Positions 11,927 through 43,774 of a DNA stretch of 64,000 nucleotides are shown here, piece by piece (within the stretch, counting starts at the first letter, position 1; each line of letters begins with the position of its first letter). Origin of the DNA: Candidatus Altarchaeota archaeon. Lineage in GTDB: Archaea; Altiarchaeota; Altiarchaeia; IMC4; QMZM01. A model generated the notes under the pieces. The model worked only from the letters and a program-made list of their open reading frames with translations. It had not been told where the DNA came from and did not search any database. Made by a program: the position numbers and the translations under genes. The stretch lies in assembly GCA_016931955.1 (NCBI GenBank), contig JAFGDV010000002.1, positions 48,471 to 112,470 of the forward strand, in the 5' to 3' direction.

Positions 11927-12289
11927 ATGCACGAGTTCTCGATAGCTGAAGACATCCTGGAGGTCGCACTGGATGAGGCGGAAAAGCATAAAGCTTCCAG
12001 GATAAAACACATCTCTGTGGAGGTTGGAGGGCTCATGATGGCGAACCTCGAGCAATTGGATTTCGCCCTCAGATCCCTGTCAGTTGGAACCCTTGCAGAG
12101 GATATGGAAGTCGACCTGAAGACGGTCCCTGGGAGATTCAAGTGCGACAACAACCACGTGAATGAGGTAAGTATTGAGGAGGATGACCTCTACCTGGCCC
12201 TAGCCTCTCTCAGATGCCCTGAATGCGGCAGCCCTCTAAGGGTGTTGAGCGGAAAAGAGTGCGTGCTGAAGAGGATAATCGCCGAATAA
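11927..12289 (+). CDS. hypA: HypA, Ni chaperone for hydrogenase maturation
   Basis: HypA delivers nickel to the large-subunit precursor together with HypB. The N-terminal Met-His-Glu (MHEFSIAEDI) is the Ni-binding motif. The zinc site is unusual: the second pair is a normal CPECG, but the first reads KCDNNH, so one Cys of the usual C-x2-C is missing and a His two residues later may replace it. Its 120 residues are typical. It starts the hypABCDE-protease operon, with a TATA-like TTTATATCC at about 11880 and no leader ribosome-binding site. Confidence 0.93.
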   Translation: MHEFSIAEDILEVALDEAEKHKASRIKHISVEVGGLMMANLEQLDFALRSLSVGTLAEDMEVDLKTVPGRFKCDNNHVNEVSIEEDDLYLALASLRCPECGSPLRVLSGKECVLKRIIAE

Positions 12290-12296
12290 CGCTAAA

Positions 12297-12947
12297 ATGC
12301 ATGTGATAGACGTAGACAGGGATATCATGGAGATCAACAGGAGGATATCTGAAAGGAACCAAAGAGTCTTGGAAGAGAACAATGTCTTTGGATTCGATGT
12401 TTTGGGGGCTATCGGCTCTGGCAAGACCTCCCTGATTGAGGCCTTGGTTGGGAGGATCGGGAAAAAACTGGGGATCGGAGCGATAGCGGGTGACGTTATT
12501 AGTGACGCCGACGCCAGCCGTTTGAAGAGGTGTGGAATCCCAGTCATCGGCTTGAACACTGGAAGGGAGTGCCATCTTGACGCCCACCTCGTCGAGCATG
12601 CGCTTGAGAGCCTTCCATTAAAGGACCTCGACATTCTGTTCATAGAGAACGTGGGGAACCTCATATGTCCAGTAGACTTCCCGCTTGGGGCACATCGGAG
12701 GATCGTTGTAGTAAGCGTGAGCGAGGGGGACGACACCGTAGAAAAGCACCCCATGATCTTCCTGGACTCTGATCTTGCGGTGATAAACAAGATAGACATC
12801 GCAGAAGCGGTTGATGCGAGCGTTGAGAAGATGGAATACGACGCCAAACGGATCAATCCACGGCTGCCTGTGATAAAAACAAGCATGAAGAAGGGTATCG
12901 GTCTAAACGAAATAGTCGATTGGATAAGAAAAGAATCCAATCTATAG
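12297..12947 (+). CDS. hypB: HypB, GTPase for nickel insertion
   Basis: HypB hydrolyses GTP during nickel loading of hydrogenase. The P-loop is GAIGSGKTSL, the metal site at the dimer interface is GRECHLDAHLV (Cys-His), and the base-recognition motif is VINKIDIAE. No N-terminal His-rich nickel-storage stretch is present, as in other archaeal HypB. It lies 7 bp after hypA in the same operon. Confidence 0.95.
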   Translation: MHVIDVDRDIMEINRRISERNQRVLEENNVFGFDVLGAIGSGKTSLIEALVGRIGKKLGIGAIAGDVISDADASRLKRCGIPVIGLNTGRECHLDAHLVEHALESLPLKDLDILFIENVGNLICPVDFPLGAHRRIVVVSVSEGDDTVEKHPMIFLDSDLAVINKIDIAEAVDASVEKMEYDAKRINPRLPVIKTSMKKGIGLNEIVDWIRKESNL

Positions 12948-12962
12948 TTTAATGGTGATATC

Positions 12963-13202
12963 ATGTGTCTGGCTATCCCAGGAAGGATCCTGGATATAAA
13001 GGACAATGAAGCATCTGTTGACTTCGGCGGCGTGAAAAGGCCTGTTAGGATTGACTTAGTCGACGCCAAGGTGGGAGACTACGTCATCGTCCATACGGGA
13101 TACGCAATCGAGGTATTGGATGAAGAGGAAGCTCTTGAAAGCCTGAAACTGTGGAGACAAATCCTCTCCAAAATGGACGATGATCCTAAGAGATTTCCGT
13201 GA
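12963..13202 (+). CDS. hypC: HypC, hydrogenase maturation chaperone
   Basis: HypC carries the Fe(CN)2CO unit with HypD and binds the large-subunit precursor. It starts with the invariant MCLAIPGRI, whose Cys2 is the essential ligand, and has the short beta-barrel core followed by a C-terminal helix, 79 residues in all. GGTGATATC directly precedes the ATG. Its end overlaps hypD by 23 bp. Confidence 0.95.
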   Translation: MCLAIPGRILDIKDNEASVDFGGVKRPVRIDLVDAKVGDYVIVHTGYAIEVLDEEEALESLKLWRQILSKMDDDPKRFP

Positions 13203-14250
13203 TAGGGGGCTTGCCTTGAAGGCGTCAAAGGAGATAGGGGATATGGCATCAACCTTGGGCAAGGTAAAGATCATGCACGTCTGCGGAACCCACGAAGACA
13301 CAATAACCCGTTTTGGGATAAGGTCTCTTCTCCCAGAGAATGTGGAGGTGATATCCGGTCCTGGATGCCCTGTCTGCGTTACGACGAACAGGGAGATAGA
13401 TGAAGCCATATCGCTCGCACAAAAAGGCATTACTGTGACGACGTTCGGTGACATGCTCCGGGTCCCTGGAAGCCGCTCCTCGCTGGCGGACTCGAAGGCT
13501 GATGGAAATGATGTGAGGATCGTCTACTCCGTAACTGACGCAGTAGAGATCGCCCATAAGAATCCGGAGAAAGAGGTTGCTCACATCGCCATAGGCTTCG
13601 AGACAACGATACCATCCAACGCGGTCGCCCTCCAAGACGCTCCTGAGAATTTCTCGATCCTATGCTGTCACCGGCTTATCCCTCCAGCGATGGAGTTGCT
13701 CTTGGAGTCTCACGAGGTGAGGATAGACGGCTTCATAGATCCTGGGCATGTTTCAGCCATAATAGGAGTAAAACCCTATAGACCTCTGGCGGAAAAATAC
13801 AGGATACCTCACGTAATCGTCGGCTTCGAGCCCCTTGACGTTCTCTTCTCCATCATAATGCTGCTGGAGATGATAAAAAACCATGAATGTGAGGTAAGGA
13901 ATGAGTACAGCCGCGTCGTCAAGGAGGAAGGCAATCAGAAGGCCTTAAGTATCATGGACGCTGTCTTCGAACCCTGCGACGTGGATTGGAGGGGCTTTCC
14001 TGTGATCCCAAGATCCGGGCTCATGTTGAGGGAACGATTCGCTGAACACGACGCAAGAGAGAGGTTCGAGCTTAGGGTAGAACCGACAGAGGATCTTCGG
14101 GGATGCAGGTGCTCTGATGTCTTGAAGGGGTTGATATATCCCAGAGAGTGCCCGCTCTTCGGTAAGGCGTGCACTCCCAAGAAGCCTGTCGGTCCCTGCA
14201 TGGTCTCTGCTGAGGGCGCATGCTCTATAATGTACAGACACACTAGCTAG
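13180..14250 (+). CDS. hypD: HypD, Fe-S scaffold for the Fe(CN)2CO cofactor
   Basis: HypD assembles the iron-cyanide-carbonyl group. Diagnostic motifs are IMHVCGTHEDTI, SGPGCPVCVTT and the C-terminal Cys cluster (LRGCRCSDVLKG, PRECPLFGKACTP, GPCMVSAEGAC) that binds a [4Fe-4S] cluster. Its 356 residues are normal. The ATG lies inside hypC, which implies coupling; HypC and HypD are physical partners in other organisms. Confidence 0.96.
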   Translation: MILRDFRDRGLALKASKEIGDMASTLGKVKIMHVCGTHEDTITRFGIRSLLPENVEVISGPGCPVCVTTNREIDEAISLAQKGITVTTFGDMLRVPGSRSSLADSKADGNDVRIVYSVTDAVEIAHKNPEKEVAHIAIGFETTIPSNAVALQDAPENFSILCCHRLIPPAMELLLESHEVRIDGFIDPGHVSAIIGVKPYRPLAEKYRIPHVIVGFEPLDVLFSIIMLLEMIKNHECEVRNEYSRVVKEEGNQKALSIMDAVFEPCDVDWRGFPVIPRSGLMLRERFAEHDARERFELRVEPTEDLRGCRCSDVLKGLIYPRECPLFGKACTPKKPVGPCMVSAEGACSIMYRHTS

Positions 14251-14251
14251 G

Positions 14252-15250
14252 ATGGAAAGGATAAAACTCTTACACGGTGGCGGGGGGGAAGCCATGCAGG
14301 AATTGATCTCTGACGTGATTAAGAACCTCTCCCTCACAAAGGTTGAGGGTGGGATCGGCTTGGATGCCTTGGACGATTCAGCAACCATACCCTTTGGAGA
14401 CAAGCACCTTGTCTTCACCACGGATGCGTACACTGTAAAGCCGTTGTTCTTCCATGGGGGGGACATAGGCAGGCTCTCTGTTTCAGGGACCATAAACGAC
14501 CTCGCTGTTATGGGCGCTAAACCAATCGCTCTCGCCTCTTCTTTCGTTATCGGTGAAGGCCTCCCATTTGAAGACTTGCGGAAGATAACGAAGTCCATGA
14601 ACCAGGTCTGCAAGGAGGTCCCAGTACCTATTATTACAGGAGACACCAAGGTCATGGAAGACCTTGATATGATCATAACAACGTCTGGCATAGGTTTAAC
14701 AGAAAAACCGATACTGGACTCCGGGATGCGGCCAGGTGACAGGATAATAGTGAACGGCACCCTCGGCGATCACGGTATGGCGATCATGGCTCAGAGGGAG
14801 GGCATATCTTTCGAGACCGAACTGAGGTCTGACTGCGCACAGTTGTGGGGTCTTATAAAAAAGATCCTTAGATACGAGATACATGCCATGAAGGATCCTA
14901 CGAGAGGCGGCCTAGCGAACGCCTTAAATGAGATGGCTGAGAAATCAAAATCAGGGGTTTTGTTGTATGAGGACCAGATACCCATGAAAGATGAAGTACT
15001 TGCGGCGTCTGAGATGCTTGGCATAGATCCCCTGTCTGTGGCAAACGAAGGGAAAGCCATTATTGTCACAAGCGAAAATGATACTGAGAAAATCCTAGAA
15101 ACGATGAAGAAGACCCGCTTGGGTCGGGATGCCTCCATAATAGGTGAGGTGACCGAAAAAGATAAGGGACGGGTGATAATGGAGACCCGCATAGGTGGCA
15201 GAAAGATCCTCAGCAAGCCTGCCGGCGACCCTGTCCCAAGGGTCTGTTAG
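14252..15250 (+). CDS. hypE: HypE, cyanide ligand synthesis
   Basis: HypE dehydrates its own C-terminal thiocarbamate to thiocyanate, the source of the CN ligands. The C-terminus is PVPRVC, ending in the required Cys. The N-terminal ATP-binding GGGGEAMQELI and GGIGLDALDDSATI, and the AIR-synthase-like KDPTRGGLANALNEMAE, are present. It begins one base after the hypD stop. HypF is not in this window. Confidence 0.96.
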   Translation: MERIKLLHGGGGEAMQELISDVIKNLSLTKVEGGIGLDALDDSATIPFGDKHLVFTTDAYTVKPLFFHGGDIGRLSVSGTINDLAVMGAKPIALASSFVIGEGLPFEDLRKITKSMNQVCKEVPVPIITGDTKVMEDLDMIITTSGIGLTEKPILDSGMRPGDRIIVNGTLGDHGMAIMAQREGISFETELRSDCAQLWGLIKKILRYEIHAMKDPTRGGLANALNEMAEKSKSGVLLYEDQIPMKDEVLAASEMLGIDPLSVANEGKAIIVTSENDTEKILETMKKTRLGRDASIIGEVTEKDKGRVIMETRIGGRKILSKPAGDPVPRVC

Positions 15251-15251
15251 G

Positions 15252-15713
15252 ATGAAAACCCTGATACTGGGCATTGGGAATCCTATACTGACCGATGACG
15301 GCGTTGGTGTTTTGATTGCTGAACGCCTACGTGATGTTGTCTCAGACCCGGAAATCGATGTCCGTGAGGAATCAACGTCTGGTCTTGACATCATAAGCCT
15401 TGTTAGGGGTTATGATAGGCTCATCCTCGTGGACGCTATAAAGACGGGTAAAGCCAGGGTTGGGGAGATACTCCGGCTCTCGCCTCAGGATATTACCAAG
15501 GAGCCTGCACTTCATTTCTCGACCCTTCATGACGCGGATTTGATGACATCCCTGAATCTTGGTAGTGAACTTGGGATAGATATCCCTAGCGAAATAGTGA
15601 TATACGCTGTTGAGGTCGAAAACGTGGAGGAATTTGGCGAGAAGTGCACACCTGAAGTGGAAAAAGCCATACCCAAGGCAGTGGAATTAATAAAGGAGGA
15701 ATTGGGTCTATAA
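15252..15713 (+). CDS. Hydrogenase maturation protease (HycI/FrhD/HyaD type)
   Basis: This endopeptidase removes the C-terminal extension of a Ni-loaded large subunit. The N-terminus LILGIGNPILTDDGVG carries the Ni-sensing Asp, followed by ESTSGLDIISLVRGY, LVDAIKTG and the His in LHFSTLHDADL. The start at 15252 is one base after the hypE stop. It is the second such protease in the window; the other is at 33129. It is convergent with, and overlaps by 6 bp, a hydrogenase-like gene whose product has no C-terminal extension to cleave, so its substrate is probably the intact hydrogenase at 35386 or one outside the window. Confidence 0.92.
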   Translation: MKTLILGIGNPILTDDGVGVLIAERLRDVVSDPEIDVREESTSGLDIISLVRGYDRLILVDAIKTGKARVGEILRLSPQDITKEPALHFSTLHDADLMTSLNLGSELGIDIPSEIVIYAVEVENVEEFGEKCTPEVEKAIPKAVELIKEELGL

Positions 15714-17084
15714 CCTCGGGAGGCTGGGGCTGTATGCCCTACATGCCATTTCTATCTTGTTGAGGTCTCTTCTTTTTGTGTTATTATTCCTGATCAATCC
15801 ATCTGCCACCTGTTTTACAGAGACGCATATAGCCGCATTGTTGTGGTTGCTGCCCGTTATTATGTCCGCCTTCTCTACGATGCCTTTCTCGTCTGTCACA
15901 TAGTGGTGGATGAGTGTCCCTGAGGGTGATTCTATAACGCCCACACCCTCCCCTTGCGTGTTTTCTGGAACATTCATCAGATTGTTGTCAGTAATCTCCG
16001 GATCCTGTATCAGCTCCAAAGCAAGCTCGGCTGAATAAAGCATTTCTATGAGGTCGGCCCAATGAAACGCCAAGGTGTGATGGCAGGGTTTCGGCAGTGT
16101 GTCAAGCATCCTCTCATATGCTTCCTGTGCCTGAGGTGTTTTCAATCCGTAGGCAACGTTTAATCTGGCCAGTGACCCGACCCGGTAAAGCCAAGAACGA
16201 TCAGCGTCAGATAGCCCCTTCCAGCCAACCTTCCTCAGATGTGAGAAACCCAGATTAGACCATGATTCCTCGTGTTCTTCCACGTGCTGGGGGTAGTCTT
16301 CTCCCCTGAACCTTAAGATCTCCCTTCCGTGGGCGTCCACGACTTTTAGATCGCCATCATAGAGTTCAAGGCGTTCTTTTTCGTCCACTGTACCCATGTA
16401 GTTCGTCTTTATATGGTAGAGCCCCTCATCGAACAGTAGATCCACGTATGCACGATTCTTTAACACGATTTCTTCGAACAGATTTAATGTAAACGCTGCG
16501 AATTCTGTAAATGACTTTACTTTGCCCTCTACCCAATCCCTCTCCTCTCCAGTGATACCCCGAGAGACGCCTCCGGGAAGCCCGCTTACTGGATGAACTG
16601 CCCTTCCCCCCAAGACCTGGAGTATCCTCTGTGCACGAAGAAGGTTTTCTGCCGCGTCCTTTGAGGTTTCCCTCCCGAGCCTCGCCGTTATTGCAGTGAG
16701 ATTCCTTTCGCGAGCTGCTGAATCAGGGTTGATGAATAGGTCTGGAGCATTCAGGTAATAAAAATTTAGTAGTTTATTCCCAAAATGGGAGATATGGTAT
16801 GTTAGTCTCCTTAGCTTGTCTGCTGTGGGTGTTGGCTCTGTTTTCCACAGAGCATCAAGTGCCTTCACAGACGCTATATGATGGGCCCAGCTGCATAGCC
16901 CGCTCATCCTTGAAATGATCCTCGGCATCTCCTCAGACGGCTGTCCGCGACATAATTCCTCAAAACCCTTCATACCCTTCGCTTGAAAGTACGCACTCAC
17001 TCCCATCTCCCTATCTGAAAATATAGTTATCCTAGCGTGGCCGTTTATTCTCGTTACCGGGTCTATTATTATCTTTTTCCTCAA
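15708..17084 (-). CDS. Hydrogenase large-subunit homologue lacking the Ni-Fe site
   Basis: Over 458 residues it aligns with group-3 (Mvh/Frh-like) large subunits, starting IIIDPVTRINGH and keeping the HPVSGLPGGVSRG region and the GSLARLNVAYGLKTPQAQE segment. The metal site is gone. Motif L1 reads RMSGLCSWAHH, so Ser61 replaces the first Cys and only Cys64 remains. Motif L2, normally DPCxxC, reads SPSLPR, so both Cys are absent. The proton-relay Glu of RxEGH is Asn14. The protein stops right there, without the extension that a protease would remove. The frame is intact and the start overlaps the small-subunit stop by 4 bp, so it looks selected rather than decayed. It probably serves as a structural or electron-transfer partner, as NuoD does in complex I (analogy only). 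Confidence 0.9.
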   Translation of the reverse strand: MRKKIIIDPVTRINGHARITIFSDREMGVSAYFQAKGMKGFEELCRGQPSEEMPRIISRMSGLCSWAHHIASVKALDALWKTEPTPTADKLRRLTYHISHFGNKLLNFYYLNAPDLFINPDSAARERNLTAITARLGRETSKDAAENLLRAQRILQVLGGRAVHPVSGLPGGVSRGITGEERDWVEGKVKSFTEFAAFTLNLFEEIVLKNRAYVDLLFDEGLYHIKTNYMGTVDEKERLELYDGDLKVVDAHGREILRFRGEDYPQHVEEHEESWSNLGFSHLRKVGWKGLSDADRSWLYRVGSLARLNVAYGLKTPQAQEAYERMLDTLPKPCHHTLAFHWADLIEMLYSAELALELIQDPEITDNNLMNVPENTQGEGVGVIESPSGTLIHHYVTDEKGIVEKADIITGSNHNNAAICVSVKQVADGLIRNNNTKRRDLNKIEMACRAYSPSLPRL

Positions 17085-18061
17085 TTTCTAGATGCCCTCC
17101 TTTGTTTCTTTAGGATGCTCGACGACAGGCTGAAGCGGTAGACTGTTCCACCAAGGGAGGGTATGCTCTCAACCGTCTTTCTTATGGTGGTCTTCTCTCC
17201 ACCGCACATAATGGAAGCTAACGTCGATATGTAGGCTCCACCCATGTCGAGGATTCCCTCAGCTGGTCCAAGGCATCCCCTACAAGGCATATTGGCTGAA
17301 ACACACTGGCTTCCGCACCCGGCTCTTGTTACAGGACCCATGCACAGCAGCCCCTGGTCAAGCAAGCAGACCTTATCGTCGAAAACCTTTTCATAGGGTC
17401 TGTGGAATACCTTGACGCTTTTCCCCTTCCTCGCTCTCTCACATTCGTCGCAGAGTGTCCTCCCAGAAGCGAACACTGAGCCTTTAGGAGGTAGTTTGTT
17501 CTCCAGCATGCTGACGAATAGCTTCAGGATCATTGAAGGTGTTGGGGGACAACCTGGGATGAGATAGTCCACATCAATGACACCGCTTAATGGACTGATG
17601 AAGTCGCATGGCTCCGGAAGTGGAAGTATGCCCTCAGCAAGCTTTACCCTCTTCCTTGATTTTTCCTTCCCCTTGCCCTGTAGACCCAGCATGCCAGGTA
17701 TTCCGCCCATGCAGGCGCATGATCCAACCGCTGTGATTATCTTGGATTTTTTTCTTAGAATCTGGGCCATGTCCATCTGCCCCCTGTTCATCACAGCACC
17801 GTTGAAGAGACAGAGGTCGATTGTTTTGTCATACATCCTCTTTACCCGAGAGTATCTGAAATCCGCTATTAGAGGCCATAAAACGACGTCAATGTTTTCA
17901 GTTATATCCAAGAATCTCTCGCCCAATCCTATGAAGGAGAGATCACAACCACCACATCCTCCTGCCATGTACAGTGCAACCTTCGGTTTTCTTCCTGGAC
18001 TAATCTTCCTTACAGCTTCCGCTACCTGCGACCAGTCTTCTCTGAATGCCTTAAGCTTCAT
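17081..18061 (-). CDS. Hydrogenase small-subunit homologue (MvhG-like, three Fe-S clusters)
   Basis: The 326-residue protein keeps every cluster ligand group expected in group-3 small subunits: GGCGGCDLSF (Cys36, Cys39), GSCACMGGIPG and PGCPPTP for the proximal cluster. A ferredoxin-like C-terminal part follows with CDEC, DQGLLCMGPVTRAGCGSQC and MPCRGCLGP. Electrons can therefore still pass through it even though its large-subunit partner cannot bind Ni-Fe. No twin-arginine signal is present, so the complex is cytoplasmic. It overlaps both neighbours (4 bp with the large subunit, 11 bp with the MvhD-like gene). Confidence 0.92.
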   Translation of the reverse strand: MKLKAFREDWSQVAEAVRKISPGRKPKVALYMAGGCGGCDLSFIGLGERFLDITENIDVVLWPLIADFRYSRVKRMYDKTIDLCLFNGAVMNRGQMDMAQILRKKSKIITAVGSCACMGGIPGMLGLQGKGKEKSRKRVKLAEGILPLPEPCDFISPLSGVIDVDYLIPGCPPTPSMILKLFVSMLENKLPPKGSVFASGRTLCDECERARKGKSVKVFHRPYEKVFDDKVCLLDQGLLCMGPVTRAGCGSQCVSANMPCRGCLGPAEGILDMGGAYISTLASIMCGGEKTTIRKTVESIPSLGGTVYRFSLSSSILKKQRRASRN

Positions 18062-18440
18062 TCTCCCACCTTAGGGGTCCCAGGGATTTAAGCTTTGACG
18101 TCATCTCCTTGACAAGTTTCATGAACCCAAAGCTCTCAGACTCCTTAAGGCATTCGAAGCGTAGCCTTTCCCTGCTTATCCTCAGATCAGAGAGCAACCT
18201 TTGGAGGAGAACAAACCTCTTGAATGCTTCCCCGTCTTCCTCCGCTGAGTGGCATTCCCCCGGAGGGCTGCACAGCATCAGGATTCCGTCTGCGCCTTTT
18301 TTGAGTTCTGAGAGCAGAAGCTTTGGGTTAAGGTGATTAACACATCCCTCCCTTACCAGGGGGATTTCCTCAAGGCCGACGTTTTTAGGCAGACAGGATT
18401 TACAGGCAAAGACAATGATCTTGGGCTCATATTCTTCCAT
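18051..18440 (-). CDS. MvhD-like iron-sulfur protein (F420-non-reducing hydrogenase delta subunit family)
   Basis: MvhD links a Ni-Fe hydrogenase to HdrA through a [2Fe-2S] cluster. This 129-residue protein shows the family pattern: FACKSC near the N-terminus, VREGCVNHLNPKLLLSELKKGADGILMLCSPPGECHSAE, and the ISRERLRFECL segment. The cluster cysteines appear to be kept. Its presence suggests that the hydrogenase-like module passes electrons to or from a heterodisulfide-reductase-type flavoprotein; no hdr gene is in the window. The gene overlaps the ParA-like gene by 14 bp and the small subunit by 11 bp. Confidence 0.88.
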   Translation of the reverse strand: MEEYEPKIIVFACKSCLPKNVGLEEIPLVREGCVNHLNPKLLLSELKKGADGILMLCSPPGECHSAEEDGEAFKRFVLLQRLLSDLRISRERLRFECLKESESFGFMKLVKEMTSKLKSLGPLRWENEA

Positions 18441-25158: not shown

Positions 25159-25761
25159 ATGCCTCTTGACCTCAAAAAAGAGATTGGAAACAACAAGATT
25201 CTGGTCTTAGTCATACCCAATGACACATACACAGAGTGTGTTATAGAATTATCAAAGCAGGTTGGAGGCATTTATGGAAAGACCTGCTACGTCAGCCTGA
25301 ACAAGCTGTTCACGGCCCTCCTGAACAGCCTCAAGAATAATGGAGTGAACACCGAGGGTTTCTTCTTCATCGACGCTATAACGAAGTCCGCCCTTCCGGG
25401 GGTAGAGAACACATTCAACTGCAATTATATATCCTCCGCTTCCTCACTACAGGAGCTGGCGATAGCGATAAATAACGAATTAAACAAGGAGGACTATGAA
25501 GCCTTGATCTTCGACTCCCTGTCCACGCTTCAGATATACAATAGAGAGGACGTTATCACGGAATTCATAAAGTACATGATGGCCAGGGTCAGGTTGTCTA
25601 ACTGCGTCGCTATCCTAACCTGCCTTGAAGGCGACACTGATTCCCAGCTTATAAGAAACCTTGCCATGTTCAGCGACAAGATAATACACATCGAAGCCCA
25701 CATAATCATGGAAGACACGGAGACGACGGTAACCTTCGAAGCCAGGGGCTCAACAATCTAA
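25159..25761 (+). CDS. KaiC/RecA-superfamily protein without Walker A (copy 1)
   Basis: The 200-residue protein has the alternating beta/alpha pattern of KaiC/RecA-like domains: a first strand LVLVIPNDTYTECVIEL, FFFIDAITKSA as a middle strand, and a Walker-B-like ALIFDSLSTLQIYN. At the place of the P-loop there is PNDTYTECV, with no GxxxxGK[ST], so nucleotide hydrolysis is doubtful. It starts one base after the CheC-like stop and is a tandem paralogue of the next gene. ArlH, the archaellum motor regulator, belongs to the same superfamily, but this protein is shorter and I do not call it ArlH. Confidence 0.7.
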   Translation: MPLDLKKEIGNNKILVLVIPNDTYTECVIELSKQVGGIYGKTCYVSLNKLFTALLNSLKNNGVNTEGFFFIDAITKSALPGVENTFNCNYISSASSLQELAIAINNELNKEDYEALIFDSLSTLQIYNREDVITEFIKYMMARVRLSNCVAILTCLEGDTDSQLIRNLAMFSDKIIHIEAHIIMEDTETTVTFEARGSTI

Positions 25762-25770
25762 GGAGCAGGG

Positions 25771-26373
25771 ATGGCACACAACCTAAAACAGGAGATCGGG
25801 AAAAACTGGATAATACTTGTGGTGATACCCCATGAGACCTACCCCGACTGCTCAATTGAAGTATCCAAGCAGATAGAGCGCATGTACCAAAGGATATGTT
25901 ACGTGAACACTAACAAGCCCTTCACCACCCTTATGAAGACCTTCAAGGACAAGGGCATAAACACGGAGGGTTTTTTCTTCATTGATATGGTAACTAGATC
26001 TGCTTTCCCAGGCGTGAAAGACGGCCCCATATGTAGATACATATCCTCTGAGTCGGCGTTGGACGAGCTTGGCTCAGCAATCAATGAAGAGCTGGATAAG
26101 GGGGTATATAAGGCATTGATCTTTGACTCCCTGTCTTCACTGCTTGTGCACAACGACGAAGACGTTCTCATAAAATTCGTGAAGTTCATTGTGACAAAGA
26201 TCAGACACTCGGACTGCATCGCTGTTCTTAAATGCGCTGAGGGGGACATCGACTCAAAGCTTATGAAGAATCTAAGCATGCTCAGCGACAAGATAATACG
26301 CCTTAGCACGCACACCGTCATGGGCCTCGACGAGACAATAGTGAGCTGCGACCTTCATAAACCCAAGGCCTAA
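25771..26373 (+). CDS. KaiC/RecA-superfamily protein without Walker A (copy 2)
   Basis: A tandem paralogue of the preceding gene, the same length (200 residues). It opens with the related LKQEIGKNWIILVVIPHETY and has FFFIDMVTRSAFPGV and ALIFDSLSSLLVHN. The P-loop is again absent. GGAGCAGGG upstream of the ATG gives a ribosome-binding site 9 bp after the previous stop. Its end overlaps the stop of the convergent debranching-enzyme gene by 4 bp. Two such proteins directly behind a CheC-like gene suggest a role in taxis signalling; this is inference. Confidence 0.7.
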   Translation: MAHNLKQEIGKNWIILVVIPHETYPDCSIEVSKQIERMYQRICYVNTNKPFTTLMKTFKDKGINTEGFFFIDMVTRSAFPGVKDGPICRYISSESALDELGSAINEELDKGVYKALIFDSLSSLLVHNDEDVLIKFVKFIVTKIRHSDCIAVLKCAEGDIDSKLMKNLSMLSDKIIRLSTHTVMGLDETIVSCDLHKPKA

Positions 26374-30388: not shown

Positions 30389-30415
30389 AATAAAAAAAAT
30401 GTGGAGGAAAAAAAA

Positions 30416-31462
30416 ATGGTTGACGCAAAAACTAAATTGCTGATATTCTTTGTTGTTGTAGGTATTATACCCGTAGTTGTGATGGGCGGTAGCATGTTTT
30501 TAATGATGGGTTACCTTGACTCAAGGATGACTGCGGATGCGCAGAGCAAGGTCACAACGTTTTTGGGGATAGCTAATGCTGTCTATAATGAAGAATTAGA
30601 TGATGTTAAGAGGACTGCAGTTGCTGCCAGCTTGCAGGATAGTGTGGGTAGTTCTCTGAGAACGGGCACAGTTGCAGCAGATTTGCAGCCTTTGTTAGAT
30701 AAGATGGTCGATGAGTCGGAGATAGATCAACTGACTGTTGTTGATAAGAGTGGAAGGGTCATCATAAGGGCAACCACAGATGCCAAGGGGGATGATATGT
30801 CTTCAAAGCCCTGGATTACGGCAGCATTGAAGGGGCAAACCCTCTTATTTACAAGGATTACTCCGGAGGCTGAGCTTGCATTAGACGGTCTCACAGAGCA
30901 GGCGCGCTTGGATTTTGTAGAAAGCCCAACTGCGAAGCCGACAACCAAAACAGTAGAGAAAGATGGTATGGTACTCACCGCTGTTACGCCTGTGATGGAT
31001 GATTCAGGAAATGTTATCGGAGCTGTTGTAGCGAGTAATCTGCTGACAAAGAACTATGAGATCGTAGATAAGGCAAAGGCAGTCTATGGAGAGAAGGGAG
31101 GCCCGACGGTTACGATATTCCAAAGCGATCTTAGGATCTCAACGAATGTTATGAGGGAAGGCAAGCGAGCGATTGGTACACGGGTTTCTGCGGAAGTGTA
31201 TGATCAGGTCTTGGGTAAGGGCCAGACCTATGTGGGACGCGCATTCGTCGTTAACGACTGGTATATAACAGCATATGAGCCAATAAAGGACGTTGAGGGA
31301 AATATCATTGGTATACTGTATGTTGGTCTGCTTGAGAGCGAGGTTAAATCAGAGATTTCGTCGTTCCTCAACTCAGCCATATTTATGAGGCTGATCATTG
31401 GTGCAGTGATTGCGATAGTTTCAGCCCTCGTTGTAATGCAGGTTTATCTGAGGAGTCTTTGA
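30416..31462 (+). CDS. Cache-domain membrane protein without output domain (1)
   Basis: A 348-residue protein made only of transmembrane helix 1 (about 9-29), an extracellular Cache3/Cache2-fusion-like sensor, and transmembrane helix 2 (about 322-344), ending at MQVYLRSL. The sensor shares YEIVDKAKAVYG, LRISTNV, GTRVSAEVYDQVL and YVGRAFVVNDWYITAYEPI with the full MCP at 4810-6942, but HAMP and the signalling coiled coil are absent. The start at 30416 is preceded by GGAGG with 8 A residues; a GTG at 30401 is the longer option. Ligand sensing must be passed to another protein. Confidence 0.85.
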   Translation: MVDAKTKLLIFFVVVGIIPVVVMGGSMFLMMGYLDSRMTADAQSKVTTFLGIANAVYNEELDDVKRTAVAASLQDSVGSSLRTGTVAADLQPLLDKMVDESEIDQLTVVDKSGRVIIRATTDAKGDDMSSKPWITAALKGQTLLFTRITPEAELALDGLTEQARLDFVESPTAKPTTKTVEKDGMVLTAVTPVMDDSGNVIGAVVASNLLTKNYEIVDKAKAVYGEKGGPTVTIFQSDLRISTNVMREGKRAIGTRVSAEVYDQVLGKGQTYVGRAFVVNDWYITAYEPIKDVEGNIIGILYVGLLESEVKSEISSFLNSAIFMRLIIGAVIAIVSALVVMQVYLRSL

Positions 31463-31476
31463 TCCAGGTAAAAAAA

Positions 31477-31737
31477 ATGAACGAAGAATTTGATTTCAGA
31501 GGGAAGATAGATCCAATGCTTACAGTGGAGACGATAAAGAAGGTTAAAGAGTACAGGGCTAAGCTGGACAGCGGCGAAATAAAGGAGGAGGTTGTCCTTT
31601 CCTTTACTATCGACCATCAACCTGCGACGAGAAGCATTCCAGACACCCTGTCTAAGACGGGTCTCGGAGATTATAGGATATTGAGGGCGAAGGATAAGCA
31701 ATTATGGAAGATCGTGGTAACGTTAAAGAAAACATAG
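31477..31737 (+). CDS. TusA-fold protein lacking the sulfur-carrier cysteine
   Basis: The 86 residues follow the TusA/SirA pattern closely: FDFRGKIDPMLTVETIKKV corresponds to the first strand-loop-helix (xDxRGxxCPxP in sulfur carriers), and DHQPATRSIP to the conserved DDPxTxxDIP. The active Cys is Asp12 (codon GAT), so sulfur transfer by the usual persulfide is impossible. The start ATG at 31477 follows AGGT plus A7. It sits 14 bp after one output-less Cache gene and 11 bp before the other, so it was probably recruited as a small binding or regulatory module for the sensors (inference). Confidence 0.75.
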   Translation: MNEEFDFRGKIDPMLTVETIKKVKEYRAKLDSGEIKEEVVLSFTIDHQPATRSIPDTLSKTGLGDYRILRAKDKQLWKIVVTLKKT

Positions 31738-31748
31738 GAGGTAAAAAA

Positions 31749-32903
31749 ATGGTTGAAGACTGGGAAGAAATCGAACGCGGAACGGGGGCCAAGGCGGCAG
31801 CCCGTGTAAAAACTGAGTCAATGAGTACCCCCACAATCGGTAGAACAAAGAAGACCGGCGTTAGGACTAAGTTGATGCTGGCTTTTATAGCGACTGCAGT
31901 TATACCTGTTCTTGTGATGAGCGTATCCCTGTGGATGATGGCCGGGGATATCAACAATTTCATGACAGACAACGCACAGGAAAAAGTCAACACGTTTTAT
32001 GGGATAACTGACCAAGTATATCAGAGCGAGATGCATAACGTGAAGGAAACTGCAATAGCGGCGGCTTCATTAGACTCTGTCGCTGATCTGGTACAGGGTA
32101 CCGGTAACAAGGATAGTGTGAGAAAGATCCTGTTGGGATTACAGAGTGCTGAGGAAGTCGGCTATTTGACGGTGTTAGATGCAAGCGGTAGGGTTGTGCT
32201 CAGGTCTAATCCAAACTCTGCCTCAGGTGATACAAAATCAGATGCATGGATCAGGACTGCCTTAGCAGGAACTGCGACAGTATCCTCTGAGGTGCTTAAT
32301 GCAAACACCCTCGCAGAGTATGGACTTGACGTGCAATCAAAGTTGTTTTTAATCACAACTGATAACGCCAAACCGACGAGTAGAACAGTGGAGACCTCGA
32401 GCTTGTCCATAGTCGCCGCCGCACCCATAAAGGATAGCACAGGACGTGTTATTGGCGCAGTTGAAGTCGGTGAACCCCTAACAAGGAATTATAAGATAGT
32501 GGATAACGCCAAGGACATATATGGTACAAGCGGCAGTCCAACAGTTACTATCTTCCAGGATGATCTGCGGATTTCAACGAACGTTAAGACAAAAGGCGGT
32601 TCAAGGGCAATCGGTACGCGTGTGTCTGTGCCAGTGTATGAACAGGTTTTAACCAGGGGCCAAGAATATGTGGGACGCGCATTCGTCGTAAACGACTGGT
32701 ATATGACATTGTATAAGCCAATAAAGAGCGGAGGCGGCAGTACTGTTGGAATACTCTATGTGGGTCTCCTTGAGAGGGATATTAAGACAGACATTGGAAA
32801 CTTTATCTCCCAACAGGTTTCTAACCGGATACTTTTCGGTGGAGTGATTGCTTTTATATTAGCTATGCTTTGTATGTGGCTCTACCTGAGAGGGTTGGAA
32901 TAA
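31749..32903 (+). CDS. Cache-domain membrane protein without output domain (2)
   Basis: A 384-residue paralogue of the protein at 30416. A cytoplasmic N-terminal extension of about 40 residues, rich in Lys, Thr and Gly, is followed by transmembrane helix 1 (about 41-63), the Cache sensor (YKIVDNAKDIYG, LRISTNV, GTRVSVPVYEQVL, YVGRAFVVNDWYMTLYKPI) and transmembrane helix 2, ending MWLYLRGLE. No HAMP, kinase or methyl-accepting domain follows; the next gene is 226 bp away. AGGAGGT precedes ATG 31749. The two Cache proteins may form a heterodimer. Confidence 0.85.
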   Translation: MVEDWEEIERGTGAKAAARVKTESMSTPTIGRTKKTGVRTKLMLAFIATAVIPVLVMSVSLWMMAGDINNFMTDNAQEKVNTFYGITDQVYQSEMHNVKETAIAAASLDSVADLVQGTGNKDSVRKILLGLQSAEEVGYLTVLDASGRVVLRSNPNSASGDTKSDAWIRTALAGTATVSSEVLNANTLAEYGLDVQSKLFLITTDNAKPTSRTVETSSLSIVAAAPIKDSTGRVIGAVEVGEPLTRNYKIVDNAKDIYGTSGSPTVTIFQDDLRISTNVKTKGGSRAIGTRVSVPVYEQVLTRGQEYVGRAFVVNDWYMTLYKPIKSGGGSTVGILYVGLLERDIKTDIGNFISQQVSNRILFGGVIAFILAMLCMWLYLRGLE

Positions 32904-33858: not shown

Positions 33859-33867
33859 GTGTTTAGG

Positions 33868-34407
33868 ATGGTAATCAAAAGAGAAACGTACACCGATTAC
33901 GAGATAGAGTTCGCGATGAGGGAGAAGGAAGACTTCGAGAAATCGATGCAGGCCCTGATGGACATTGTCGGCGCAACAGTAAGCACTCTCGAATCGGTGG
34001 CTGGGATGGGTGCCAGAGCCATGAGCTACATGGCGGGCAAGAACATCGGCAAGAGGATAGGTAGAATGATCGGCAGAAAACCCGACGTTGAAACCGCGAT
34101 AGATGCCCTCACAGACCTGATGGGCGACGCGTGGAAGATCGAAATATGGAAGCCTGCAACCGAAAAGGAATTGGTGAAGAAGACTGACAAAGGCTTCCAG
34201 TGCAAGCTTCTCTTCAGGGACTGCATAGTAAGGCAGACCCTTGAGAGGGAGGCGATACCGCAGAAGGGGACCATGTGCTACCTCACCAATGGATACGTGT
34301 GCGGAGCCTTGGAGGTGATGCTTGGAATGCGCGGCAAACTTGATTTCCTCCACAGCGGAAACAACGCTTGCCTGAAGGATCTGAATTTAACTAGGGAGGG
34401 CGTGTAA
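33868..34407 (+). CDS. V4R-like (hydrocarbon-binding domain) protein of the hydrogenase operon
   Basis: The 179-residue protein ends in a segment with the V4R spacing of Cys and Gly: FRDCIVRQTLEREAIPQKG, then MCYLTNGYVCGALEVMLGM, and finally GNNACLKDLNL. V4R domains bind small hydrophobic ligands or a metal through conserved cysteines. The N-terminal half is helical with a Gly/Arg/Met-rich MAGKNIGKRIGRMIGRKPD. The ATG at 33868 lies 9 bases after the ferredoxin stop and follows GGTG. It is placed between the ferredoxin and the small subunit with only one base to the latter, so it is probably a subunit or assembly factor; this is inference. Confidence 0.65.
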   Translation: MVIKRETYTDYEIEFAMREKEDFEKSMQALMDIVGATVSTLESVAGMGARAMSYMAGKNIGKRIGRMIGRKPDVETAIDALTDLMGDAWKIEIWKPATEKELVKKTDKGFQCKLLFRDCIVRQTLEREAIPQKGTMCYLTNGYVCGALEVMLGMRGKLDFLHSGNNACLKDLNLTREGV

Positions 34408-34408
34408 A

Positions 34409-35389
34409 ATGGCTAAGACAACACTGGCCTATGTCGCGGGAGCGATATGCGGCGGATGCGCCACCACCATGCTCGATGTTCACGAGGAGCTTCCAGACCT
34501 CTTAGAAAAAATCGATATCGTTTATAATACGTTGTTAATGGATGTAAAAAAGATCCCCGAATGCGACATCGGCGTGTGGGGCGGGACCGTAAGGACCGAT
34601 GAACACAGAGAGCAGCTGATTGAGCTGAGGGGGAAGTGCAAGACACTTATCGCCTTCGGGACATGTGCCGTATATGGCGGCATCCCCGGGCTGAGCTTCT
34701 ACTGGCCCATATCCGAGTTACTTAAAAAAGTCTACACCGGTACTAAGGGCATCACCAACGGAACCCCACCCAAGCAGGATGTCCCCAACCTGATGAGGGA
34801 GCTGTATCCAGCCGACCAGGTTGTTGAGGTAGACTACTACATGCCAGGTTGCCCTTGTCCGCCAGACTGGTTCATGAAAGCTGTTGAAGCACTCCTCGAA
34901 GGCAAGGTGTCTGAGCTCAGGCATAAAACAGTCTGCTCCGAGTGTCCGAGAAGGATGACTCGTCCAGTGAATTTCCCGATAAAGAGGAAGATTGGGAAAT
35001 TCGACGACACCGTCGTTAAAACAGAGAAGGACGGAACTGTAAGGCACAGATGCTTCCTGTCTCAGGGGATACTCTGCCTTGGCTCTGTGACAATCAATAG
35101 ATGCGGGGCCTCCTGTCAACTGCATAATATGCCCTGCTCCGGATGCTCTGGCCCGTCCCTCGAGGTTTTGAGGGAACAGGGAAGGGACCCACTGCTCATG
35201 ATTGCGAAGAGGATGGCCATCCTCTCCGGGCAGGACCCTGAAGCCATCATCAGCGGGCAAATACCACAGGATATCATAGACCAGTTCTACGACATAAAAC
35301 ACCAGTTTTACGGGTATATCTCAACCCATCCCGCATTGTGGAAGAAAGCAGCTTCAAAGATACCCGACCTAGTGGAGGTTGAAAAATGA
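34409..35389 (+). CDS. [NiFe]-hydrogenase small subunit (group 3-like)
   Basis: A 326-residue protein with proximal-cluster ligands GAICGGCATTM (Cys14, Cys17), FGTCAVYGGIPG and MPGCPCPPDW, then further cysteines in the C-terminal ferredoxin-like region (VCSECPRR, GILCLGSVTINRCGASC, MPCSGCSGPS). There is no Tat signal, so it is cytoplasmic. It overlaps the large-subunit start by 4 bp. Compared with the module at 17 kb it has the same overall plan but is only distantly similar. Confidence 0.94.
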   Translation: MAKTTLAYVAGAICGGCATTMLDVHEELPDLLEKIDIVYNTLLMDVKKIPECDIGVWGGTVRTDEHREQLIELRGKCKTLIAFGTCAVYGGIPGLSFYWPISELLKKVYTGTKGITNGTPPKQDVPNLMRELYPADQVVEVDYYMPGCPCPPDWFMKAVEALLEGKVSELRHKTVCSECPRRMTRPVNFPIKRKIGKFDDTVVKTEKDGTVRHRCFLSQGILCLGSVTINRCGASCQLHNMPCSGCSGPSLEVLREQGRDPLLMIAKRMAILSGQDPEAIISGQIPQDIIDQFYDIKHQFYGYISTHPALWKKAASKIPDLVEVEK

Positions 35390-36822
35390 GCGAGATAATA
35401 ATAGACCCCATGACGAGGTTGGAGGGTCACGGAAAGGTTACCATCGAACTAGACGACGGAGGCAAGGTGAAGGATGCAAGGTTCTCGATAGTCTACCTGA
35501 GAGGCTTTGAGAAGTTCCTTGAAGGCTGCGCCCTGGAGGATCTTCCAAAGTTCACCCCAAGGATATGCGGCGTCTGCCCGGTCGCACATCACATGGCGAG
35601 TGCCAAGGCATGTGACGCAGTCCTAAAAGCCAAGCTGACGGAGACCGGAGAAAAGATCAGACGCCTATGGTACGCAGTCAACGGCGTGCACGACAAGATG
35701 TTGATATTAGCGGGCACAGGCGCTCCAGATCTGTTGCTGCCGGATGCAAACCAGAAGACGAGGAACGTGATAACCTTGATAACGAAGAACCCTGAGCTCG
35801 GTAAGAAGATCCTCGAACTAAGGAAGTTCGGCCAAGAGAGTAATAGAGTAATATCAGGAAAAGCCATCCACCCATTTACTGCAGTACCTGGCGGCGTCTC
35901 CTTCAAGGTGACAGAGGACCAAGTCAAACAGATCAAAAAGCTGGGGAAGAACGCACTACATATTGCAACAGAGGTGGTAGAGCTGATAAAGGATAAAACC
36001 TATGAACTTGTAGAAAAAAAAGGCGACCTCTTGGAGAAATTAGGTAATGTCGAGACGAACTACTTGGGTTTGAGGGCTTCGGATGGGACAAGCGACCACT
36101 ATGATGGCGATGTTGCTTTCATGGATTCAAAGGGGAAGATCACGGAATTCCATCCATCGGATTACCTGAATTATCTGGCTGAGAACACCTCTGATTACTC
36201 CTTCGGCAAGTATCCCTACTGGAAGGCCTTAGGTTTCCCTGAGGGGATCATAAGGGTCGGTCCACTAGCGAGGTTGAATGTTGCTGAGAAACTGAGCACA
36301 CCTAAGGCGCAGGAGTACTTTGAAGACTTCAGGAAATCCTTCGGCAGACCAGCGCATGTGACCATGCTATACCACTACGCCCGCGCTATCGAGTTGTTGA
36401 ATTGTGCGGAGATGGCAATGGACCTCTTAGATGATCCCGCAATTCTAGGTGACGACACCATAGGCAGCATGGGTCCGCTTGGAGCAGGTCAAGGCGTTGG
36501 CATAGTGGAAGCCCCAAGAGGGACTTTAATACACCACTATGAGACAGACGAAAAGGGTCTTGTAAAGGACATCAACCTGATTGTTGCCACGACATTCAAC
36601 AATGCACCAATAGACAGGGATATCAAGGCTGCATCTCAGAAGCTGATAACCAGCAAGTCGCCTAATGAGAAGATACTGAACACTATAGAGATGGTTGCAA
36701 GGGCATATGATCCCTGCCTCTCATGTGCTGCACACAGCGTTGACGGCGGCTATCCCCTGAAGATAGAGATATATGACTCGGAGGGTAATAGGGTGGGGGA
36801 GATAAGCAATACACGGAGGTGA
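35386..36822 (+). CDS. [NiFe]-hydrogenase large subunit, intact active site
   Basis: The 478-residue subunit has the L1 motif PRICGVCPVAHH (Cys61, Cys64) and the L2 motif YDPCLSCAAH (Cys444, Cys447, His450), with the proton-relay Glu in TRLEGHG. A 28-residue extension after His450 is the part removed by the maturation protease after nickel insertion. It should activate H2 in the cytoplasm, exchanging electrons through the small subunit and ferredoxin. The group-3 (Mvh/Frh-like) assignment is by overall look; there is no MvhD or FrhB gene in this operon. Confidence 0.95.
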   Translation: MSEIIIDPMTRLEGHGKVTIELDDGGKVKDARFSIVYLRGFEKFLEGCALEDLPKFTPRICGVCPVAHHMASAKACDAVLKAKLTETGEKIRRLWYAVNGVHDKMLILAGTGAPDLLLPDANQKTRNVITLITKNPELGKKILELRKFGQESNRVISGKAIHPFTAVPGGVSFKVTEDQVKQIKKLGKNALHIATEVVELIKDKTYELVEKKGDLLEKLGNVETNYLGLRASDGTSDHYDGDVAFMDSKGKITEFHPSDYLNYLAENTSDYSFGKYPYWKALGFPEGIIRVGPLARLNVAEKLSTPKAQEYFEDFRKSFGRPAHVTMLYHYARAIELLNCAEMAMDLLDDPAILGDDTIGSMGPLGAGQGVGIVEAPRGTLIHHYETDEKGLVKDINLIVATTFNNAPIDRDIKAASQKLITSKSPNEKILNTIEMVARAYDPCLSCAAHSVDGGYPLKIEIYDSEGNRVGEISNTRR

Positions 36823-38476: not shown

Positions 38477-40063
38477 ATGTTCTCCAAGTTATTCAATTGG
38501 TTGGTTAAGCGGATGCCGTACACTTCCGCCCTTGTCTTGATCTGTTTTACCTGGGCTATCCTGGTCACCGTCTTCGGAGCCTTACTGGTCATCATCGGCG
38601 CCAGGGAAAATTTTGAGGTTACTGGAACCAGAGACCTATATTTGATGCTCTATTTCGGTGGTGTTTCAATGGCTTCCACCCTCATCCTGATAGAATACAG
38701 CATCCTCCGCGTTTTCGGGATCAGGTTTGAGAGGAAAGAGTTCACTCCACTAAACGACAACATCGTGGACGGTCACTTCAGAGAGAATATCTCAGATGAT
38801 GACCTTGTGAAGGCCTACTATGCTCTCGTCAACCTAACCAAGTGGAAGGAGACACGGGATGTCGTCTATGCTCAGATAGTCGTCTTCGGCGCCGCCTTCG
38901 GGGAGTGGCTTATCAGCGGACAGTTGATGAACGTGCCCATCATCTTTGTAGGCAGCGAAATCGCGGTTTTTTCGCTTTACGTGTATGCTGCCGTCTTCCA
39001 TGACACCATAACCTCTCCAGCTAGGAGGGAATGCAAGCTTCTCATGGCTGAACGAGGAATACCATTCAAAGAAACCCCCATGTTGAGTCTGAGGACTAAG
39101 TCAAGGTTCTTCATTGCCTTGATTGGCTTGGCTCTTCTAGCGATCCTTATCCTGATAAAGCCCTTTAATCCGTTGATTGTGGTCCTCGCCTTGATAACCC
39201 TCGCCATAGTCAGCATGTTAAACGACTTCGTATCTAAGTCTATTCAAACAGAATTTGAGGAGATTAAGGAGTCAGCCCATAGCTTGGCGGAAGGCAAAAA
39301 GGCGCTGTTTTTCTCAGGCAGCTCTGACAGGGAGATGTTTGATCTAACGCAGAGTTTGAATAAAACCGCCGGAGAGATAACAGATTACCAGAGATCCCTT
39401 AAAGAAAAGATAAATGAATTGGAGGAGTATATGTCTGTGGCTTCACACGACCTCCAGCAGCCCCTGGCGACGATTCAGGCTTATACGCAGATTCTTAAGG
39501 TGGTTGAACAGGATGATGAGAAACTGAAGAAAGTCAAGGTCGTTGAATCCCAGGCAGACTTCATGAGGGAGATGCTCAATGATCTACTGGAGTACTCCCG
39601 CGCCAAAAAGACTATGGAATACGAAGAAGTGAAGCTCCATAAAGTCCTTGAGGAAATCAGAGAACACCTGAAAGTGCAGATACAAGAAAAAGAAGCTAAG
39701 ATAATATTCAAAGACATTCCTGAAACAATAATAGGACAACCTAAGAGAATAGAGCAACTATTCCTGAACCTAATAGGCAATGCAATAAAGTACTCAGACA
39801 AACCGATAATAGAAGCAGGCTGCACCGACCGAGAACAGGAATACGAATTCTACGTAAAAGACAACGGAAGAGGAATAGAACAAAAATACCACGAAAAAAT
39901 ATTCAAACCATTCTGGAAGCTCGGCAAAGAACCAGGAACCGGAATGGGTCTCGCAATATGCAAAACCGTGGTCGAAAACCACGGAGGAAAAATCTGGATA
40001 GAATCCACCCCAGGAAAAGGCTCAACATTCAAATTCACAATACCAAAAAAACAGGGGGGATGA
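38477..40063 (+). CDS. Membrane histidine kinase, tandem paralogue 1
   Basis: The 528-residue protein starts with the family motif MFSKLFNWLVKRMPYTSAL and has about six transmembrane helices in residues 15-250. A HAMP-like linker (FEEIKESAHSLAEGKKAL) and a short coiled coil follow, then the HisKA H-box SVASHDLQQPLATIQAYTQ (phospho-His) and an ATPase domain with GNAIKYS (N box), DNGRGIEQKY (G1) and GTGMGLAICK (G2). There is no extracellular sensor, so the stimulus is probably sensed in the membrane. A receiver gene follows after one base. TTTATATCC 25-30 nt before the ATG is a likely TATA box for the whole array. Confidence 0.9.
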   Translation: MFSKLFNWLVKRMPYTSALVLICFTWAILVTVFGALLVIIGARENFEVTGTRDLYLMLYFGGVSMASTLILIEYSILRVFGIRFERKEFTPLNDNIVDGHFRENISDDDLVKAYYALVNLTKWKETRDVVYAQIVVFGAAFGEWLISGQLMNVPIIFVGSEIAVFSLYVYAAVFHDTITSPARRECKLLMAERGIPFKETPMLSLRTKSRFFIALIGLALLAILILIKPFNPLIVVLALITLAIVSMLNDFVSKSIQTEFEEIKESAHSLAEGKKALFFSGSSDREMFDLTQSLNKTAGEITDYQRSLKEKINELEEYMSVASHDLQQPLATIQAYTQILKVVEQDDEKLKKVKVVESQADFMREMLNDLLEYSRAKKTMEYEEVKLHKVLEEIREHLKVQIQEKEAKIIFKDIPETIIGQPKRIEQLFLNLIGNAIKYSDKPIIEAGCTDREQEYEFYVKDNGRGIEQKYHEKIFKPFWKLGKEPGTGMGLAICKTVVENHGGKIWIESTPGKGSTFKFTIPKKQGG

Positions 40064-40064
40064 G

Positions 40065-40430
40065 ATGGTTAAGGTTCTCGTAGTTGACGACTATGCTCCG
40101 CTTAGAGAGATTGCAGTCATGATCCTGAAGTCTAAGGGTTTCGATGAAGTGTTTGAAGCGGAGAGCCCGGAGGAGGGGATGAGGTTATTCGAGGAACATA
40201 AGCCAGAGCTTGTCATATTAGATATAATAATGCCTGTCACCAATGGAATAGACTTGGCTGCGGAGATCAAGAAAGTTAATCCAGAAACTAAGGTGGTCAT
40301 GCTCAGTGTCTTGGGCGAGAACACTCATGGAAAGAAACGAGTAGAGGAGGTGGCTGATCTTTACTTGGTGAAACCTTTAACCCATGAAAAAGTCGATAAA
40401 ATCAAGGAGATACTAGACTCAGGGCCTTGA
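40065..40430 (+). CDS. Stand-alone response regulator of the kinase array (1)
   Basis: A 121-residue receiver with LVVDDYAPLRE, phospho-Asp in ILDIIMP, Ser in LSVLG and Lys in LVKPLT. No DNA-binding or enzymatic domain is attached. It lies directly between kinases 1 and 2 and is closely related to the receiver at 47012; the pair brackets kinases 2-5. Output would be by protein-protein contact. Confidence 0.92.
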   Translation: MVKVLVVDDYAPLREIAVMILKSKGFDEVFEAESPEEGMRLFEEHKPELVILDIIMPVTNGIDLAAEIKKVNPETKVVMLSVLGENTHGKKRVEEVADLYLVKPLTHEKVDKIKEILDSGP

Positions 40431-40437
40431 TAAAAAA

Positions 40438-42099: not shown

Positions 42100-42109
42100 A
42101 AGATAAAAA

Positions 42110-43774
42110 ATGTTTTATGGGATATTTAATTGGTTTGTGAAGAGGCTTCCGTATAGTCTAGCAGTGATGATCTTCAGTTTTATTTTGAGTGCTTTGATGA
42201 TCGTCTTCGTTGCCTGGTTTATTCTGATCGGGACTGATATTGAGTCTGAAGGAACCGCTGGTGTTGTGATATCCGCTCTTTTCTTGGCAGGGTTTGTCTC
42301 CTTCATATTATGTATCATAGAATACGGTTACGGCATCTCTTTTGGACTGGAGGGGAAAAGAAAGGGTTTCAAGGTCCTCAACGACAACATCATAGAGGGG
42401 CGCATTAGACAGGATATATCTGACCAGGCACTCTTAGAGGTCTACGACGCCCTTAAAAAAATAAACAGGTGGATATTGAGCAGACATATGTTATATGCTA
42501 ACTCCATAGCAACCGCTGGTGCTTTAGCAGAACTGCTGACAAGTGGGAATTTAATGAATGCAGTTATCATTTGGGCTATTGGATTAATCTGGGGCAATAT
42601 AGCAGTCATAACAGGAATCGCCTATGACCTATTCACTCTCCCAGCTAGGCGTGAATGCAAGCTGCTCTTGAATTCGAGAGGCATCCCCTTCAAGGACGAC
42701 GCCTATTTCCTTGGTCTTAGGATTAAATCCGACCTATTCATCATCTTAACTGCCTTTGGTTTGGGTGTGATTTTATTGATTTTCCGCCCAATCACCTGGG
42801 AGCTTGTAGTATCTGCCGCCATCATCCTCCTCACCGTTGTCTTATTAACTAAGCTAGTATTCGAGACCATCTATGCCGCGTTATTGGAGATTAAAGACTT
42901 AGCCAGTGATCTGGAGCATGGAAGGAAGGTTTCTTTCTTCACCGGCAGCTTGGACCGGGAAATCGTGGACCTGTCTAAGAGCCTGAATGTCGCAGCTGAT
43001 GAGATCTACTTTACTAAGAAGGCCCTTGAGGAAGAGAAGACTTCCCTGGAGCTTAAGGTTGAAGATAGGACTAAGGAGTTGAAGGGACTTAATGAGAGCC
43101 TGGAGGAGAAGGTAAAAGAGAGAACTAAAGAGCTTGAGGGGAAGATAGGTGAGTTGGAGGAGTATACCTCCGTCACCTCCCATGACCTCCAGCAGCCACT
43201 TGCTGCGATTCAAGCCTACACACAGCTCACTCAAAAAAATGCTAAGATGATAGAATCCCAGGCGAACTTCATGAGAGAGTTGCTTGAGGACTTGTTAAGT
43301 TATTCACGAATAAAGGAGAAGGCACCCTCTGAGGAAGTGAAACTCCAAGATATATTGAAAGAGGTAAAAGAACACCTGAAAGTGCAGATACAAGAAAAAA
43401 ACGCAGAGATAACACTCAAAGACATACCTGAAACAATAACAGGACAACCTAAGAGGATAGAGCAACTATTCCTAAACCTGATCAGCAACGCATTGAAATA
43501 CACCGACGGAAAAACAACAATTGAGGTCGGCTGCGAGGGGGGAGAGAGGGAATATGAATTCTGGGTGAAGGACAATGGTATAGGAATCGAACAAAAATAC
43601 TTCGAGAAAATATTCAAACCCTTCTGGAAGCTCGGCAAAGAACCCGGAACCGGAATGGGCCTCGCCATATGCAAAGCAGTAGTGGAAAACCACGGAGGAA
43701 AAATCTGGATAGAATCCACCCCAGGAAAAGGCTCAACATTCAAATTCACAATACCCAAGAAAAATGTTCCTTAG
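42110..43774 (+). CDS. Membrane histidine kinase, tandem paralogue 3
   Basis: 554 residues, starting MFYGIFNWFVKRLPYSLAV. The membrane domain has diverged more than the kinase domain. It shares with paralogue 2 the long coiled coil (LNESLEEKVKERTKELEGK) and the shortened hairpin after SVTSHDLQQPLAAIQ. The ATPase domain has SNALKYT, DNGIGIEQKY and GTGMGLAICK. Its end overlaps the next kinase by 11 bp. Confidence 0.9.
   Translation: MFYGIFNWFVKRLPYSLAVMIFSFILSALMIVFVAWFILIGTDIESEGTAGVVISALFLAGFVSFILCIIEYGYGISFGLEGKRKGFKVLNDNIIEGRIRQDISDQALLEVYDALKKINRWILSRHMLYANSIATAGALAELLTSGNLMNAVIIWAIGLIWGNIAVITGIAYDLFTLPARRECKLLLNSRGIPFKDDAYFLGLRIKSDLFIILTAFGLGVILLIFRPITWELVVSAAIILLTVVLLTKLVFETIYAALLEIKDLASDLEHGRKVSFFTGSLDREIVDLSKSLNVAADEIYFTKKALEEEKTSLELKVEDRTKELKGLNESLEEKVKERTKELEGKIGELEEYTSVTSHDLQQPLAAIQAYTQLTQKNAKMIESQANFMRELLEDLLSYSRIKEKAPSEEVKLQDILKEVKEHLKVQIQEKNAEITLKDIPETITGQPKRIEQLFLNLISNALKYTDGKTTIEVGCEGGEREYEFWVKDNGIGIEQKYFEKIFKPFWKLGKEPGTGMGLAICKAVVENHGGKIWIESTPGKGSTFKFTIPKKNVP

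Follow-up and report, generated by a model that had tools for sequence, protein, structure and literature searches.

Can a soluble [NiFe] hydrogenase module lose its metal site and persist as a working electron-transfer device? Such a change, with the Ni–Fe site lost and the electron wire surviving, is the presumed route from hydrogenases to complex I. The question is raised again by positions 15708–18440 (minus strand) of the window, the 64,000-nucleotide stretch of an uncultured archaeon's DNA analyzed here, which encode MvhD-, MvhG-, and MvhA-like proteins. The window belongs to a MAG of 1.55 Mb (92% complete, 0.4% contamination), where it lies on a contig of 112 kb, and in the genome set used the host phylum is represented by only 29 species genomes. 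Pfam matches the large subunit to NiFeSe_Hases (65.7 bits), the small subunit to Oxidored_q6 (82.7), and the MvhD-like protein to FlpD (70.4). The features of the locus are as follows.

11927–15250, plus strand: hypA, hypB, hypD, and hypE (NiFe maturation), names from sequence reading
15195–15713, plus strand: HycI-type maturation protease, convergent with the large-subunit gene, last 6 bases overlapping
15708–17084, minus strand: NiFe-less MvhA-like large subunit, 458 aa, TTG start overlapping the small-subunit stop (TTGA)
15711–15731, minus strand: degenerate L2, SPSLPRL then stop (D452S, C454S; second Cys and terminal His absent)
16893–16904, minus strand: degenerate L1, S61-G-L-C64, position computed from the ORF coordinates
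17081–18061, minus strand: MvhG-like small subunit, 326 aa, short loop deletion after GGIPG
18051–18440, minus strand: MvhD-like protein, 129 aa
18427–19302, minus strand: ParA-type ATPase, overlapping the MvhD-like start by 14 bases

The minus-strand genes run in the order ParA, MvhD-like, MvhG-like, MvhA-like. Their frames overlap successively by 14, 11, and 4 bases, which suggests that all four are probably carried on a single transcript. A promoter and terminator scan gave no signal above chance. No membrane subunits are encoded alongside the module; its neighbors are ParA, che, and hyp genes.

The large subunit aligns with MvhA end to end, and its residues were read directly from the open reading frame. 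The first L1 Cys is replaced by Ser61 (RMSGLC) while Cys64 is kept, Asn14 (TRINGH) stands in place of the proton-relay Glu, and Arg388 has become Ser (PRG to PSG). The protein ends in RAYSPSLPRL, and neither the second L2 Cys nor the cleavage His is reached. These residues bear out the sequence-only reading, which had listed Ser61, SPSLPR at L2, Asn14, and a single surviving metal Cys. Its further claim, a stop exactly where the protease-cleaved mature form would end, was close: the stop lies near that end but about two residues short of the mature-end His. The C-terminal extension cut by the HycI-type protease is thus missing, as the stop precedes the cleavage His. Only one of the four Ni ligands (C64) remains, and E14, R388, and D452 are lost as well. 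With one ligand left, the predicted protein cannot hold a normal Ni–Fe site. The E14 and R479 positions of Escherichia coli hydrogenase-2, which we take to be the counterparts of large-subunit residues 14 and 388, matter for H2 chemistry. The titles of PDB entries 6GAM and 6SYO describe hydrogenase-2 variants at these two positions. Twenty-six intact homologues share 90 invariant columns, of which the NiFe-less large subunit keeps 60. Losses fall on 7 of 10 active-site columns and 23 of 80 others, a weak enrichment (Fisher p 0.014) that drops to p 0.05 when the tail columns are left out. The missing L2 tail was sought in the other downstream frames and none encodes one, so a concealing frameshift or read-through was rejected. 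A split L2 peptide as in VhuU was also rejected because the L2 segment lies in frame and is mutated. Missing maturation did not force the loss of the site, since hyp genes adjoin the module.

The Fe–S subunits tell of retention. The small subunit keeps 12 of 12 [4Fe-4S] cysteines, predicted to form three ligand sets, and 76 of the 94 positions invariant in nine homologues. The MvhD-like protein matches MvhD (5odc_D) over its full length and keeps five cysteines, one of them shifted by one residue, but it lacks 9 residues in the conserved YxGADLAG loop. The expectation that both proteins keep their cluster cysteines therefore held, with the shift and the lost loop as qualifications. The AF2 model of the large subunit (pLDDT 84, pTM 0.90) has MvhA (5odc_F) as its best Foldseek match, with TM 0.91/0.94. 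It is weakest at residues 11–15 and at the C-terminal end, and both regions lie at the former active site. The model of the MvhD-like protein (pLDDT 85, pTM 0.80) is weakest at residues 21–30, beside the deletion.

Intact relatives of the large subunit are present in the same genome. One lies inside the window at 35386–36822 with C61/C64 and C444/C447 in place, confirming the intact homologue reported earlier. Its small/large pair (34409–36822) has no MvhD or HdrA neighbor within the window. A 182-aa protein without a Pfam match (33859–34407, plus strand) stands directly before the pair, in the spot expected for MvhD. A closer intact paralogue, 47% identical to the NiFe-less copy, belongs to an HdrA-MvhG-MvhA-HdrC-HdrB operon that lies beyond the window, at contig position 31389. 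In relatives of the same family, HdrA2-MvhG-MvhA occurs as an intact cluster together with HdrC and HdrB. The host's intact HdrA2-MvhG-MvhA-HdrC-HdrB operon (locus L016, 6255–12183; contig C5, 28254–34182) is without a HycI gene, and several relatives carry HycI after the large subunit of this operon. The HycI at 15195–15713 may serve the intact HdrA2 operon.

In trees the NiFe-less copy sits on a long branch (1.45–1.69 changes per site), deep among HdrA-linked hydrogenases. Recent duplication of the genome's own intact paralogue was rejected; the two are not sisters (AU p 0.005) and are 47% identical. Of the placements as sister to the family clade (AU p 0.42) or to Bacillota (p 0.52), neither was rejected, and the large- and small-subunit trees disagree weakly. 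The proposed search for homologues sharing the L1/L2 loss returned none, either in 20 bacterial relatives or in the homologues drawn from about 640 archaeal genomes. The bacterial set came from one GTDB scan that reached close relatives only, and the archaeal sweeps covered 394, 227, and 28 genomes with some overlap. Ni ligands are present wherever the bacterial loci cover them, and likewise in the archaeal loci whose motifs were read. The remaining archaeal entries were judged by length only, with open frames of at least 479 aa versus 459 for the NiFe-less copy. In the open-access literature we came across no Mvh-family large subunit described as lacking its Ni ligands.

The module could be a gene remnant heading for loss, and the long branch, the absence of an orthologue in relatives, and the loop deletions in the small subunit and the MvhD-like protein point that way. 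Its three overlapping frames, however, stay open at about 50% divergence, where a neutral simulation gave 11 stops and none is observed. Differences from the intact homologues have a mean BLOSUM62 of −0.12 to 0.04, as conservative as those separating working enzymes from one another, compared with −0.73 in the simulation, every cluster Cys is kept, and codon position 2 differs at 0.28–0.30 versus 0.63–0.67 for position 3. A remnant is therefore very unlikely. Under simulated unconstrained drift only 20% of frames were open after 50 changes, and such drift is limited to a few dozen substitutions. Three lost Ni ligands plus four other losses at the active site point to a larger number. The lack of stops and the conservative differences at such divergence leave two readings: a fairly recent loss on an old lineage, or continued selection on the gene once the site was gone. 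Some of the conserved pattern could predate the loss. The module comes from a single MAG, no orthologue was found, and the long end branch indicates that constraint is relaxed relative to the intact copies. The sequence-only reading had named recent decay and sequencing error as grounds for giving up its view. As far as the decay comparison could be run, the copy is not a young duplicate and bears no sign of neutral decay. An error in the sequencing or assembly of a normal hydrogenase is hardly credible: the module is seen in one MAG contig only, but many independent, coherent changes are spread over three genes, no alternative frame holds an L2 tail, and the neighboring genes match relatives (HypD 65% to the same genus, HypE 58% to the same family). 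The NiFe-less module is real and probably functional.

We favor, at a probability of roughly 0.6, the reading that the locus derives from an Mvh-type (group 3c) mvhDGA module and is functional but H2-inactive, acting as an Fe–S relay or redox device. The earlier proposal that the complex no longer handles H2 and keeps its Fe–S chain is well supported. In such a device the large subunit would keep the hydrogenase fold, no longer bind Ni–Fe, and serve as a structural cap, or as a new docking or ligand pocket, over the small subunit. Electrons would still run between a partner and MvhD along a wire of three [4Fe-4S] clusters in the small subunit and a single cluster in the MvhD-like protein. We infer that the complex assembles, that its clusters are occupied, and that it transfers electrons. 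The flavin or Hdr-type partner suggested earlier found no support. Only one HdrA turned up in the genome, an HdrA2 to which an MvhD domain is already fused; the module's MvhD has lost part of a loop that is otherwise conserved; and a search for an FrhB/FdhB flavin subunit (PF04432) gave no match in the MAG, where at 92% completeness absence is not proof. These findings weaken the case for an Hdr-type partner, and canonical docking on HdrA in this host seems unlikely. They also count against a role at the host's HdrA2–HdrBC complex, whether as another arm for electron input, as a regulator, or as a competitor, in spite of the MvhD/MvhG/MvhA homology, the D-G-A order shared with hdr-mvhDGA operons, and the precedent of ElpABC as a cofactor-less arm on Hdr (PMC12350162); we regard this role as improbable. 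The genomic setting makes a place in chemotaxis the least unlikely of the alternatives, though still a doubtful one. The module would signal the redox state of the cell through the ParA-type ATPase, or be positioned by it. In favor, the ParA gene shares bases with the module, which together with the hyp genes sits inside a chemotaxis cluster, between CheC/CheY/CheA and CheB/CheD/MCP genes, and in two relatives (G006 and G007) a ParA homologue stands between receptor and CheA genes. Against this, the ParA orthologue of a same-genus genome (G009, 62%) has no module beside it, which means that the neighborhood varies; the hyp genes are there too, so the place may be just a hydrogenase island; and nothing directly links the module to taxis. 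About as doubtful is the stronger form of the idea, a hydrogenase-derived Fe–S complex without a metal site that is made together with the ParA-type ATPase as a redox sensor of archaeal chemotaxis.

The preferred reading, an H2-inactive Fe–S relay or redox device, can be set beside known systems. The module shares subunit make-up, D-G-A gene order, fold, and Fe–S cysteines with the group 3c Mvh complex MvhAGD (PDB 5ODC); it differs in lacking the Ni–Fe ligand set and outer-shell residues, in its shortened MvhD, and in that no free HdrA was found in the host genome. ElpA of the Methanothermobacter marburgensis Elp–Hdr complex is a cofactor-less catalytic subunit that stays in the electron arm, and ElpABC likewise wires a cofactor-stripped catalytic subunit to an MvhD homologue (PMC12350162). 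ElpA, however, is of formate dehydrogenase origin and acts on HdrABC together with a flavin subunit, ElpB (PMC12350162). HylA of the Hyl formate dehydrogenase complex has also lost its metal-site motifs and still belongs to an electron-transfer complex, but it is of the [FeFe] family, with an unrelated fold (PMC6085437). Ehr and NuoD/FpoD are [NiFe] large-subunit homologues without L1/L2 ligands (PMC7304191, PMC4378227, PMC7886697); they are group 4 proteins with membrane subunits, whereas the module is of the group 3c type without them and lost its site separately. By analogy, these cofactor-less proteins count in favor of a functional relay. The module is probably a Ni–Fe-less variant of the hydrogenase-turned-relay theme, here in the Mvh (group 3c) family and known from one MAG. 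The earlier known cases (NuoD, FpoD, and Ehr) are all group 4, and an independent soluble Mvh case, in a cell that also has an intact paralogue, would be a second natural experiment in turning a hydrogenase into a relay. Hydrogenase calls made by large-subunit homology without an L1/L2 check overcount hydrogenases.

The window holds further signaling genes. About seven CheC-like paralogues, assigned by reading with two tested by Pfam, occur in one chemotaxis region (3312–25157). Two tandem 200-aa proteins lie beside the chemotaxis genes (25159–26373), and the first is weakly similar to KaiC/DUF7504. Two similar tandem membrane proteins follow at 30401–32903, the first with Cache domains and without a recognized MCP signaling domain. 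Five tandem paralogous membrane histidine kinases, with a receiver protein interspersed, occupy 38477–46968.
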